DNA from: Pseudomonadota bacterium
Lineage (GTDB): Bacteria; Pseudomonadota; Gammaproteobacteria; Ga0077536
Assembly: GCA_029977665.1 (NCBI GenBank)
Contig: JAPOKK010000005.1
Location: 1-40,406 of the forward strand
DNA length: 40,406 bases
Reading direction: 5' to 3'
Made by a program: the position numbers and the translations under genes. Under the pieces are notes generated by a model that ran no database searches, was not told where the DNA came from, and saw nothing but the letters and a program-made list of their open reading frames with translations. Numbering within the stretch: position 1 is the stretch's first letter; every line of letters begins with the position of its first letter. Positions 28,839-35,188 of this stretch are shown piece by piece.

Positions 28839-30452
<1,614 letters not shown>

Positions 30453-30620: not shown

Positions 30621-31316
30621 ATGCCGCGGGTTCCGTCGACCAAGCATCCGCCGATCGCGGCCGAGGGCCGCACGGTGTTCGTCGTCGCGCTCGCGCTCGC
30701 CGCGCTGGCCGTCGGCCTGTACGGTACGCCGGCGCTGCTCGTCGGCGTGCCGGTGGTCGCCGGCGTCGCGTGGTTCTATCGCGATCCGCACCGCGACTCG
30801 CCGTCGCTGCCGCTGGCGCTCGTCGCGCCTGCCGACGGCCAGGTGATCGCGGCCGGCGCCACCTTCGATCCCTGGTGCGGCCGCGATGCCGAGTGCGTCA
30901 CGGTGCGCATGGGGCTGTTCGACGTACACAGCCTGTTCAGTCCCATCGAAGGCAAGATCGTCGAGCAGTGGTCGCAGCCACGGCACCCGTCGCCGTGGCC
31001 GACCCAGCCGGAACCGCGCATCGCCTACCTGGTGCGTACCGACGAGGGCGACGAGGTCGTGCTCGAGATCGCACGCGGCACGCTGCGCGGTCCGCTGCAC
31101 GTCGCCTATCAGCCGGGCGAGCGCATCGGGCACGGCCGGCGCATCGGTTTCATTCCCTTCGGAGCCACGCTGACCGTCTACTGCGGCCAGCCGACGAGTA
31201 TCGAGACACAGAGCGGCAGCCGCGTCGTCGGTGCCTGCAGCGTGCTGATGACGCTCATCCACGAGCAGCCGGTGAGCGCGGTCAACCAGGCGGACGAGGC
31301 GAACGAGGCGGGTTGA
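30621..31316 (+). CDS. Phosphatidylserine decarboxylase-like protein lacking the pyruvoyl-forming Ser
   Basis: 231 residues, the size of short-form Psd. Two adjacent membrane segments (about 18-52, TVFVVALALAALAVGLYG) precede the WFYRDP motif, the PADGQVI Asp72 and FDVH His103, all as in the family. The C-terminal self-cleavage site, normally FGS, reads FGA (residues 180-182, codon GCC at 31164-31166), so the Ser that becomes the pyruvoyl group is missing. FDVH is also not followed by the usual Asn-Arg. Position between ilvC and pssA favours a Psd origin. It may be inactive, may do another job, or may cleave elsewhere; GS at 199-200 aligns outside the normal site. I chose the ATG at 30621; an upstream TTG adds no conserved sequence. 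Confidence 0.75.
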   Translation: MPRVPSTKHPPIAAEGRTVFVVALALAALAVGLYGTPALLVGVPVVAGVAWFYRDPHRDSPSLPLALVAPADGQVIAAGATFDPWCGRDAECVTVRMGLFDVHSLFSPIEGKIVEQWSQPRHPSPWPTQPEPRIAYLVRTDEGDEVVLEIARGTLRGPLHVAYQPGERIGHGRRIGFIPFGATLTVYCGQPTSIETQSGSRVVGACSVLMTLIHEQPVSAVNQADEANEAG

Positions 31317-31358: not shown

Positions 31359-31454
31359 AGTCAGGCCCTGCACGCGACGCGGCAGCGCGCGTCGGCCCGG
31401 CATCGACTGCGCACTTTGCACCGCCATCCGTCGCAGTGACCACGTTCAAGCGCG

Positions 31455-31460
31455 AGGAGG
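31455..31460 (+). promoter_or_regulatory. Ribosome binding site that sets the pssA start
   Basis: AGGAGG, a perfect match, lies 5 bases before the ATG at 31466. It argues for that start over the in-frame GTG at 31436. Confidence 0.75.
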
Positions 31461-31465
31461 CGTTC

Positions 31466-32278
31466 ATGCGAGTCGTGCATTCCGAAACGCGGGGCGAACC
31501 GCGCAAGACCGCTGCCGTGGGCACGCCACGCCGCCGCGCCGGTATCTACCTGCTGCCCAACCTGTTCACGACGGGCGCACTGTTCGCCGGCTTCTACGGC
31601 ATCGTCGCGGCGATCAACGATCGCTTCGAGGCTGCCGCCGTGGCGATCTTCGTCGCCATGGTGCTCGACGGCATGGACGGCCGCATTGCGCGCATGACCA
31701 ACACGCAGAGCGATTTCGGCGCCCAGTACGACAGTCTCGCCGACATGGTCTCCTTCGGTCTGGCGCCGGCGCTGGTCGTCTACGAGTGGTCGCTGCAGGG
31801 GCTGGGCAAGCTGGGCTGGCTGGCGGCGTTCGTCTACACCGCCGGGGCCGCGCTGCGCCTGGCGCGTTTCAATACCCAGGTCGGTAATGCCGACAAGCGC
31901 TATTTCCAGGGCTTGCCGAGCCCGTCCGCCGCCGCCCTGGTCGCGGCGATGGTCTGGGTCGGGCATCATTTCGAACTCGAAGACGGCCTGTTGCTGCTCA
32001 CGGCGAACCTGCTGGTCACGGTTGCCGCGGCGCTGCTGATGGTCAGCAACGTGCGCTATTACAGCTTCAAGGATCTCGACCTGCGCGGGCGCGTGCCGTT
32101 CGTCACGGTGCTCGCCGTGGTGCTGGTCTTCGTGCTCATCTCGCTGGAACCGGCCAGCGTGCTGCTCGTGATGTTCGGCTCCTACGCCGTCTCGGGCATC
32201 GTCCAGACCTGGTGGCAGCGCCGCCGGCGCAAGGCCGAGCGGCGCGAGGCGCGGGCGGCGACCAGCGACGAAGGCTGA
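31466..32278 (+). CDS. pssA: CDP-diacylglycerol-serine O-phosphatidyltransferase (type II)
   Basis: Makes phosphatidylserine from CDP-diacylglycerol and serine in the inner membrane. 270 residues. The CDP-alcohol phosphotransferase motif is complete: DGMDGRIAR at its front and FGAQYDSLADM at its back, giving the D-G-x2-A-R and G-x3-D-x3-D metal and substrate site. About seven to eight membrane helices span residues 25-245; a basic tail follows. It lies after the Psd-like gene, an order seen with ilv genes in other proteobacteria. A UDG gene starts 13 bases downstream. Confidence 0.93.
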   Translation: MRVVHSETRGEPRKTAAVGTPRRRAGIYLLPNLFTTGALFAGFYGIVAAINDRFEAAAVAIFVAMVLDGMDGRIARMTNTQSDFGAQYDSLADMVSFGLAPALVVYEWSLQGLGKLGWLAAFVYTAGAALRLARFNTQVGNADKRYFQGLPSPSAAALVAAMVWVGHHFELEDGLLLLTANLLVTVAAALLMVSNVRYYSFKDLDLRGRVPFVTVLAVVLVFVLISLEPASVLLVMFGSYAVSGIVQTWWQRRRRKAERREARAATSDEG

Positions 32279-32290
32279 GCGCAGGGCATC

Positions 32291-33025
32291 GTGAGCAAAG
32301 CGATGGAGCCGGTCCTCGATGCGCGCCGTCACGCCATGCTCGAAGCGATGGGCATCGACGTGTGGGTACGCCGCGATGCCGTCGATGCCGGGGATGGCGC
32401 CATCGCCCCGGTGGTGGGCCCGGTGCCGCGGGGCATGCCGGCTTCGGGCGGCGACGCCGTGGCTGAACTCGCCGCGCTGGCGCAGGAGGTTGCTGCCTGT
32501 ACCGCCTGCCCGCTGGCCGAAACGCGCACGCAGACAGTCTTCGGCGTAGGTGCCGCCACGGCGCGCTGCCTGGTCATCGGCGAGGCGCCGGGCGCCGAGG
32601 AGGATCGCCGCGGTGAACCCTTCGTCGGCCGTGCCGGGCAGCTGCTCAACGCCATGCTGGCGGCCATCGGGCTGGCCCGCGAGAGCGTCTACATCGCCAA
32701 CATCCTCAAGTGCCGGCCGCCCAACAACCGCGACCCGCAGCCGGCGGAAGTCGCCGCCTGCAGCGGCTTCCTGCGTCGCCAGATCGCGCTCGTCGCGCCG
32801 CGCGTGATCCTGGCCGTCGGGCGTATCGCGGCGCAGAACCTGCTCGGCGTGGAGACGCCGATCGGACGCATGCGCGGCCAGGACTACGTCTATGCCGGGA
32901 CCGACATTCCGGTCGTCGTCACCTATCACCCGGCCTACCTGCTGCGATCCCCCGGCGAGAAGCGCAAGGCGTGGACGGATCTGCAGCGCGCGAAACGCCT
33001 GCTCGACGCGGCGGGGGACGCATGA
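32291..33025 (+). CDS. Uracil-DNA glycosylase, family 4 (iron-sulfur)
   Basis: Removes uracil from DNA. 244 residues. An N-terminal extension of about 55 residues precedes the domain. The four cluster cysteines are seen at 70, 73 (CTACPL), 141 ([11 protein letters not shown]) and 157 (AACSGF), fitting a [4Fe-4S] site. Motif 1 is [17 protein letters not shown] and motif 2 is HPAYLLRSP with His213. The GTG at 32291 is used as start. It overlaps rimI by ATGA. Confidence 0.93.
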
Positions 33026-33510
33026 GCGCCGTGCTGCGTCCGGACGCGCTCAACATCCGTCCGATGGGCGACGACGATATCGCCGGGGTACTCGAAATCG
33101 AGAACCGCTCCTACGATTTCCCGTGGTCGGCGACGATATTCTCCGACTGCCTGCGCGTCGGTTATTGCTGCTGGGTGCTCGACACCGGCGAGCGCCTGGC
33201 CGGTTACGGCATCATGTCGGTGGCGGCGGGTGAGAGTCACATTCTGAACATCTGCATCGACCCGGCAGCGCGCGGCCAGGGGTATGCGCGAGCGCTCATG
33301 CAGCACTTGCTGGAAACCGCCTGCAGCCATGGCGCACGCGTCGCATTTCTCGAAGTGCGTCCATCGAACGACGTGGCACGCGGGCTCTACGCTACGCTCG
33401 GTTTCAAGCACGTCGGCACGCGCCACGACTACTACCCGGCGGTCGACGGCCGCGAGGACGCCTACGTGCTCAGCATGCCGCTCGAGCCGCGTACGGAACG
33501 CTGCGAATGA
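33022..33510 (+). CDS. rimI: Ribosomal protein S18-alanine N-acetyltransferase
   Basis: GNAT-family acetyltransferase that acetylates the N-terminal Ala of ribosomal protein S18. 162 residues. Key parts: IENRSYDFPWSATIFSDCLR near the start, the acetyl-CoA loop ARGQGYARALMQHL, and the C-terminal YYPAVDGREDAYVLSMPL pattern typical of RimI. Its ATG overlaps the UDG stop. Confidence 0.93.
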   Translation: MSAVLRPDALNIRPMGDDDIAGVLEIENRSYDFPWSATIFSDCLRVGYCCWVLDTGERLAGYGIMSVAAGESHILNICIDPAARGQGYARALMQHLLETACSHGARVAFLEVRPSNDVARGLYATLGFKHVGTRHDYYPAVDGREDAYVLSMPLEPRTERCE

Positions 33511-33571
33511 GGTGAGCACGACGCCGCCGCGTGGCGCGGCACGGGCGCGTGACGTTGCGCGCCTGGCGAAG

Positions 33572-33604
33572 TTGAACGCACGCGCGTTACCGGCTAGCCT
33601 AGCC
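33572..33604 (+). promoter_or_regulatory. Candidate promoter with CTAG palindrome upstream of pagL-like gene
   Basis: TTGAAC (33572-33577), a 17-base spacer and TAGCCT (33595-33600) form a weak sigma-70 pattern. The -10 part is overlapped by the perfect palindrome GGCTAG-C-CTAGCC (33592-33604), whose 13-base symmetry and position suit an operator. It lies 31 bases before the ATG. Confidence 0.4.
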
Positions 33605-33635
33605 GCCCTGTGCAACCACCCGGTAGTACCCGCTC

Positions 33636-34196
33636 ATGACTGCGAACGTTCTCGCCGCACTGCGTGCCGTGGCCGCGCTCGGCGCGCTGTTATTCTTCGC
33701 GCCTGCCGGCGCCGTCGATACCGTGCTCCTCGAAGGCGGTATGACGGAGAGCGACGAGGACGCCGAGCGCTACGGCGGTGCCGTGCGTTGGAATCTCGGC
33801 GGCGCCTGGTGGCGTACCGGTGACTGGAGCGTGGCGAGCTATCTCGAGCTGTCCGTCACCTACTGGGACGGCGAGCAGGGGCGCACCGGCGAGGACGACC
33901 TGGTCGACTTCGGCCTCACACCGGTGCTGCGCTGGCAGCGCGATCCGAGCAAGGTCGGGCTCGCGCCGTTTCTCGAACTCGGTCTCGGCGTGCACGGCCA
34001 CACCGAGGATGGCATCGGTAACAAGGACTTCGACATCCCGTTCGCGTTCGGCAGTCACATCGGCGCCGGCGCGCGTTTCGGTGCCGGTGGCCGTTACGAG
34101 CTGGTTTACCGCTTCCAGCACCTCTCCAACGCAGGGCTCGGCGACGACAACCCTGGCATCAACTTCCACGTTCTGCAGCTCGGCTATCATTTCTGA
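33636..34196 (+). CDS. Lipid A 3-O-deacylase, PagL family
   Basis: Outer-membrane beta-barrel that removes the 3-O acyl chain from lipid A. 186 residues. A signal peptide is visible (cleavage likely after AGA near residue 26), followed by alternating beta-strand segments. The C-terminal signature FQHLSNAGLGDDNPGINF holds the catalytic His162 and Ser164, and the protein ends in Phe, as barrels do. It is a single gene between rimI and the cysM-like gene, in no lipopolysaccharide locus. Confidence 0.88.
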   Translation: MTANVLAALRAVAALGALLFFAPAGAVDTVLLEGGMTESDEDAERYGGAVRWNLGGAWWRTGDWSVASYLELSVTYWDGEQGRTGEDDLVDFGLTPVLRWQRDPSKVGLAPFLELGLGVHGHTEDGIGNKDFDIPFAFGSHIGAGARFGAGGRYELVYRFQHLSNAGLGDDNPGINFHVLQLGYHF

Positions 34197-34276
34197 GCGG
34201 CCCTGCGGCGCGACCGCGGCGCCCCGCCGCCGGCCGCGCGGCGCCGGCTGATCCGCGACAACACAGGACACCGGCC

Positions 34277-35188
34277 ATGGACGAGGAGCGCAGCACCACG
34301 AGCTGGCCGACGCTCGAAGACTTCGTCGGCAACACGCCGCTGGTGCGCCTGCAACGCATTCCGGGCGAGACGAGCAACGTCATTCTCGCCAAGCTCGAAG
34401 GCAACAACCCGGCCGGCTCGGTCAAGGATCGCCCCGCGCTCAGCATGATCCGCCAGGCCGAGGCGCGTGGCGACATCCGGCCCGGCGACACCCTCATCGA
34501 GGCGACCAGTGGCAACACCGGTATCGCGCTCGCCATGGTCGCCGCCATGAAGGGTTACCGCATGGTCCTGATCATGCCGGAGAACATGTCGAGCGAACGG
34601 CGCGCGACGATGAAAGCCTACGGCGCCGAGCTGCTACTGGTCACGGCGGAGCAGGGCATGGAGGGTGCGCGCGACCTCGCCCAGGCCATGGCTGCGCGCG
34701 GTGAGGGCGTGGTGCTCGACCAGTTCGCCAACCCCGACAACCCGCTCGCGCACTACGGCGATACCGGTCCCGAGATCTGGCGCGACACGCATGGCCTGGT
34801 CACGCATTTCGTCGCCTCCATGGGCACCACGGGCACCATCATGGGCACCTCGCGCTACCTCAAGAGCCGCAACCCGGCCATCGAGATCGTCGGCGTGCAA
34901 CCGGCCGACGGCGCCCGCATCCCCGGGATCCGCCGCTGGCCCGAAGCCTACCTGCCGAAGATCTACGACGCGTCGGCGGTCGACCGCATCATCGACGTGA
35001 GCCAGGACGAAGCCGAAGCGATGACGCGCCGGCTCGGCGCCGAGGAGGGCATCTTCGCCGGCGTCTCCTCGGGCGGTGCACTGGTCGCGGCGCTGCGGGT
35101 CTCGGCCGCGGTCGAGAACGCGGTCATCGTCACCATCGTCTGCGATCGCGGCGATCGCTATCTCTCGACCGGTGTTTTTCCCGAATGA
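34277..35188 (+). CDS. cysM: Cysteine synthase B
   Basis: PLP enzyme that makes cysteine from O-acetylserine and sulfide, or thiosulfate in CysM. 303 residues, short as in CysM. The PLP Lys50 is in NPAGSVKDRPA; phosphate-binding TSGNTG and GVSSGG follow. Replacement of the usual CysK C-terminal region and the Arg-containing MSSERRATMKAYGA segment support CysM over CysK. Confidence 0.9.
   Translation: MDEERSTTSWPTLEDFVGNTPLVRLQRIPGETSNVILAKLEGNNPAGSVKDRPALSMIRQAEARGDIRPGDTLIEATSGNTGIALAMVAAMKGYRMVLIMPENMSSERRATMKAYGAELLLVTAEQGMEGARDLAQAMAARGEGVVLDQFANPDNPLAHYGDTGPEIWRDTHGLVTHFVASMGTTGTIMGTSRYLKSRNPAIEIVGVQPADGARIPGIRRWPEAYLPKIYDASAVDRIIDVSQDEAEAMTRRLGAEEGIFAGVSSGGALVAALRVSAAVENAVIVTIVCDRGDRYLSTGVFPE

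Follow-up and report, generated by a model that had tools for sequence, protein, structure and literature searches.

Within the window analysed here (40,406 nucleotides, positions 1 to 40,406 of contig JAPOKK010000005.1 from a gammaproteobacterial assembly), a frame related to phosphatidylserine decarboxylase (Psd) lies between ilvC and pssA. The original prediction described an intact gene without frameshift at this location, with Ala in an FGA motif at the pyruvoyl-forming site and with Asp72 (PADG) and His103 (FDVH) retained, and each of these points is borne out by the features listed below. Residue counts, in the list and throughout, come from a census of 118 distinct sequences that we read, comprising 40 of the catalytic type, which belong to the phylum's other classes or, in some cases, to Gammaproteobacteria, and 78 sequences from the gammaproteobacterial clade to which the window protein belongs.

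29430..30452, + strand: ilvC, the upstream neighbour; a conserved adjoining gene in most loci read.
30621..31316, + strand: Psd-like pseudoenzyme gene, 231 aa; an open ATG-to-stop frame with a PF02666 match and same-place relatives in most genomes.
30834..30836, + strand: Asp72 (equivalent of E. coli D90) in the motif PADG; Asp in 40/40 catalytic-type and 67/78 clade sequences.
30927..30929, + strand: His103 (equivalent of E. coli H144) in the motif FDVH; present in the window protein, gone in 73/78 clade sequences.
30948..30956, + strand: clade motif E110-G-K112; E110 in 78/78 clade and 4/40 catalytic-type sequences.
31038..31055, + strand: clade motif T-D-E-x-D-[D/E], residues 140-145; [TS]DE.[DNR] in 77/78 clade and 2/40 catalytic-type sequences (L131, L133).
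31116..31136, + strand: clade motif G-E-R-I-G-[Q/H]-G at residues 166-172, with G166 and R168 in every clade sequence.
31164..31166, + strand: Ala182 codon GCC at the pyruvoyl-forming Ser site; the column is Ser in 40/40 catalytic-type sequences, and 66/78 clade sequences have another residue there.
31436..32278, + strand: pssA (type II CDP-alcohol phosphatidyltransferase), the downstream neighbour; TIGR00473 score 117.5 bits (cut-off 107), adjoining in nearly all loci.

In the translated frame Ala182 stands in the context IPFGATLTVY. Of the autocleavage triad, the window protein has both the Asp and the His, as Asp72, Asp101 (aligned with E. coli D142) and His103, and it lacks the (L/F)GS/GST pyruvoyl Ser, the NER loop and the ARR[IL] segment. 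The autocleavage residues of E. coli Psd are D90/D142-H144-S254, and its S254A mutant remains uncleaved (PMC7952604); read against this enzyme, the window protein retains the Asp/His side and lacks the cofactor-forming residue. A score of 46.7-47.5 bits against PF02666 (PS_Dcarbxylase, cut-off 22) places the protein within the sequence family, and every NCBIfam Psd equivalog cut-off is missed, the best score being 86.2 bits (curated cut-off 262). Judged by its sequence, the window protein is not a pyruvoyl-type Psd. The same Ala occurs in a separately assembled sister species (L024/L188, 95% identity), which excludes a sequencing error and, together with the intact frame, rules out a frameshift.

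Across the sequences read, the absence of the Ser is a property of the clade and not a private mutation of the window gene. Alignment with short-form Psd proteins shows Ala shared by 21 of the 78 clade members, the remainder carrying G (20), R (14), S (12), C (7) or, once each, K, T, L and Q, whereas all 40 catalytic-type sequences have Ser, preceded by an invariant Gly. The triad His survives in only 5/78 clade members compared with 40/40 catalytic-type sequences, the window protein exceeding most of its clade in triad retention; the NE[RQ] of the NER loop is found in 0/78 versus 40/40, and ARR[IL] in 1/78 versus 38/40. Residues E110, D141, E142, G166 and R168 are present in 78/78 clade members, D144 in 76/78 and H214 in 87%, and with the exception of G166 these clade-fixed residues are merely sporadic in catalytic-type sequences. 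Beyond what the original prediction had anticipated, the losses extend to catalytic features other than the Ser, and invariant residues peculiar to the clade have arisen. Homologues occur across Gammaproteobacteria, in 21 of 96 relatives searched, and a clade profile (A1) matches 99 of 276 genomes of the class, a count that includes some catalytic-type sequences and a few weak matches.

Of the known systems, the short-form (bacterial/archaeal) phosphatidylserine or archaetidylserine decarboxylase (PF02666, NF003680/NF003678, TIGR00164) is homologous to the window protein from end to end (hhalign probability 100, E 9e-64); both have an N-terminal hydrophobic segment and both are encoded between ilvC and pssA. 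The clade of the window protein differs from it in being mostly without the pyruvoyl Ser and His, without the NER loop and nearly always without ARR[IL], and in having its own E-G-K, T-D-E-x-D-D and G-E-R-x-G-Q-G motifs. A PDB sequence search with either the window protein or the clade profile matched no Psd chain, and a catalytic-type profile gave a weak match to E. coli Psd (E 0.001). The AlphaFold model of the window protein, built from five sequences only, has a pLDDT of 39, too low for judging the fold or whether the clade-fixed residues come together. We found no description of a Psd pseudoenzyme or of this clade among open-licence PMC papers.

In nearly all loci read, both the catalytic and the degenerate gene type have ilvB-ilvH-ilvC upstream and pssA downstream on one strand, and this common setting argues for an ancestral gene that has stayed in place, with no insertion. 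The gene can nevertheless be lost, since ilvC and pssA persist as neighbours without a Psd-like frame. In two members of the window's own family (G008 and G009) they are adjacent and the Psd-like gene is gone; in some gene-less genomes, these two included, the ilvC-pssA gap is 0-457 bases, and three further gene-less genomes have a gap of 700-1000 bases, likewise without a Psd-like frame. In genome G292 the ilvC-pssA interval at L202 4451-5452 holds a short unrelated frame and an N stretch, and no Psd-like frame. After pssA, window positions 32291-35188 carry uracil-DNA glycosylase (UDG)-like, RimI-like and CysM-like genes, an order that G007 and the sister species share, with UDG and CysM following in other family members too.

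Of 276 gammaproteobacterial genomes, 247 have a type II PssA that scores above the cut-off, and most of these are without the Psd-like gene; being near-universal, PssA does not need the pseudoenzyme, and a dependence of type II PssA on the Psd-like gene is unsupported. Type I PssA, considered as an alternative partner state, passes the cut-off in 1/276 genomes and is uninformative. PssA columns fixed only alongside the pseudoenzyme amounted to one weak column and nothing convincing.

In a tree of the 118 rows (IQ-TREE, LG+C20), a branch supported at 100/100 separates the 40 catalytic-type rows from the rest. With the rows from the phylum's other classes as outgroup, a root of our own choice, this argues for a single loss of catalysis. 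Within the clade, Ser requires 10 changes on the tree against a shuffled mean of 11.6, with 33/500 shuffles as low. This nearly random scatter suggests that the site drifts, its constraint gone, and with A, G, R, S and C freely exchanged there, another cofactor mechanism at this position, one of the roles raised in the original prediction, is unlikely. Two catalytic-type sequences combine features of both groups:

L131, 4010-4654, - strand: short Psd with a full active site and the clade motifs, sequence read.
L133, 4004-4648, - strand: short Psd with a full active site and the clade motifs, sequence read.

Both retain FNVH, NERN, ARRI and FGS yet already bear IEGK and TDEKDD, and on the tree they branch beside the clade as its nearest catalytic-type sequences. 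They are likely to be surviving evolutionary intermediates.

The window genome contains exactly one further PF02666 gene (G000:C302:2043-2705, protein P0002, 199.9 bits). Its translation contains YDYHRVH and GST, which identifies it as a canonical long-form Psd and the genome's evident PE source; the earlier suggestion that the strain has another Psd is thereby confirmed, and the window gene is ruled out as the genome's sole Psd. This long-form, E. coli-type enzyme (6L06, 7CNW) belongs to the same Pfam family as the window protein, in which D90, D142 and H144 have their counterparts. The long form, evidently the working Psd of the genome, has kept GST and YDYHRVH, whereas in the window protein the position of S254 is taken by Ala. 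A search with P0002 covered 80 genomes, 76 of which were residue-typed. The long form was present in 0/14 catalytic-type versus 58/62 degenerate-type genomes, and a catalytic short Psd and a long Psd never occurred together among the 76; nor was a long-form Psd found by this search in the L131 and L133 genomes. Fisher's test of this complementarity gives p 4e-12 with shared ancestry ignored, a value that overstates independence because the types are split by one branch and represent approximately a single evolutionary event. No long Psd was found in four degenerate-type drafts of 150-410 contigs (G118, G212, G232 and G253, with loci L186, L148, L155 and L162, respectively); gaps in the assemblies or an alternative PE route would account for these exceptions. 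An extra, weaker long-form Psd-like match of 28-35% identity lies at G127:C114, G277:C38, G180:C30 and G305:C20, besides the main psd.

Several other explanations for the Ala at this site need to be weighed. It is scarcely credible that the FGA motif reflects an alignment error, with the real cleavage Ser elsewhere. The window protein does have a Gly-Ser pair in SGSRVV, and the original prediction had named GS at residues 199-200 as an alternative cleavage site, but this pair is conserved no further than the sister species and gives way elsewhere mostly to G-D/E-R-V, leaving it without family support, while the FGA region aligns gap-free with FGS-bearing relatives in the hhalign comparison. 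A decarboxylase still active through another residue or cofactor at the same site is also very improbable. In its favour are the retention of Asp72, Asp101 and His103 in the window protein and the FGC motif, with Cys at the site, of several relatives. Against it are the canonical psd elsewhere in the genome, the loss of the His in 73/78 clade members, the absence of the NER loop and ARRI, and the range of residues that the clade has at the site (A, G, R, S, C, K, T, L and Q). A Cys at the pyruvoyl site could in principle permit partial processing. For the Ala of the window protein itself, the uncleaved state of E. coli S254A Psd (PMC7952604) argues further against such activity.

Selection bears on whether the gene is simply decaying. 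The window gene is under purifying selection, weaker than that on the adjoining IlvC and PssA: compared with the sister species, its dN is 0.027 and its dS 0.201, giving a dN/dS of 0.134 (0.13-0.18 in other clade pairs), against 0.031 for IlvC, 0.048 for PssA and 0.148 for UDG. The excess over IlvC and PssA, the high divergence and the several relatives without the gene in the ilvC-pssA gap would fit a remnant that the long-form Psd made redundant and that is slowly being lost, with no present function. However, dN lies far under dS, very divergent relatives still have intact frames, and remnants should not fix new residues that are invariant in 78/78 sequences, so that this reading is already disfavoured and in our view improbable. 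The same invariant residues invite the suggestion of a neofunctionalised enzyme, in which the Psd fold is reused and E110, D141, E142, D144, R168 and H214 make up a novel site, catalytic or metal-binding, that has nothing to do with pyruvoyl chemistry. Their near-complete conservation, the fact that none is required in catalytic Psd, and the intact gene in many families are all consistent with this, but the residues lie mostly in turn-like short motifs (E-G-K, T-D-E-x-D-D), an acidic surface would suit binding equally well, and the TDE and EGK motifs are already found in two fully catalytic Psd sequences. We consider a new enzyme of this kind unlikely.

The explanation that we consider probable is that the short psd of an ancestral ilvBHC-psd-pssA cluster lost its catalytic function and is retained today as a pseudoenzyme anchored in the membrane. 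In this model the window gene would be the direct, in-place descendant of that short-form psd, with catalysis having been lost once, in genomes also possessing the long-form Psd. The Psd fold would have been kept, as a Psd-like domain with a hydrophobic N-terminal membrane anchor; the pseudoenzyme may sit at the membrane beside PssA, and its acidic/Arg surface may bind a partner or a lipid head group. The original prediction had allowed for a different role, and the place of FGA within a clade-wide loss points the same way. Tentatively, the protein could serve near PssA as a lipid sensor or membrane partner that regulates PS synthesis or passes PS on to the long-form enzyme, although PssA carries no matching signature and the partner thus remains a guess. 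The trypanosome AdoMetDC prozyme provides a precedent for a dead paralogue controlling a live pyruvoyl decarboxylase: the prozyme, itself catalytically dead, activates the live enzyme, which is encoded in the same genome (PMC5201418). It differs from the present case in belonging to an unrelated family and in forming a functional complex that has been demonstrated, whereas a complex here is conjectural.

On balance, we think that the window gene represents an ancient, widespread and previously unrecognised gammaproteobacterial family derived from Psd, in which the pyruvoyl site was replaced by an invariant acidic/Arg site and which would act as a regulator or new enzyme in PS metabolism within the ilv-pssA cluster. 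The gene seems to be present in approximately 30% of sampled gammaproteobacterial genomes, an estimate in which some matches were counted from search output only. As a Pfam match would yield the annotation phosphatidylserine decarboxylase, genes of the clade are probably misnamed as enzymes, and recognising the pseudoenzyme corrects metabolic annotation. The family offers an example of one form of Psd being replaced by another with the old gene retained for something else, the intermediates L131 and L133 make the order of these events testable, and a possible new control step in PE synthesis is indicated.
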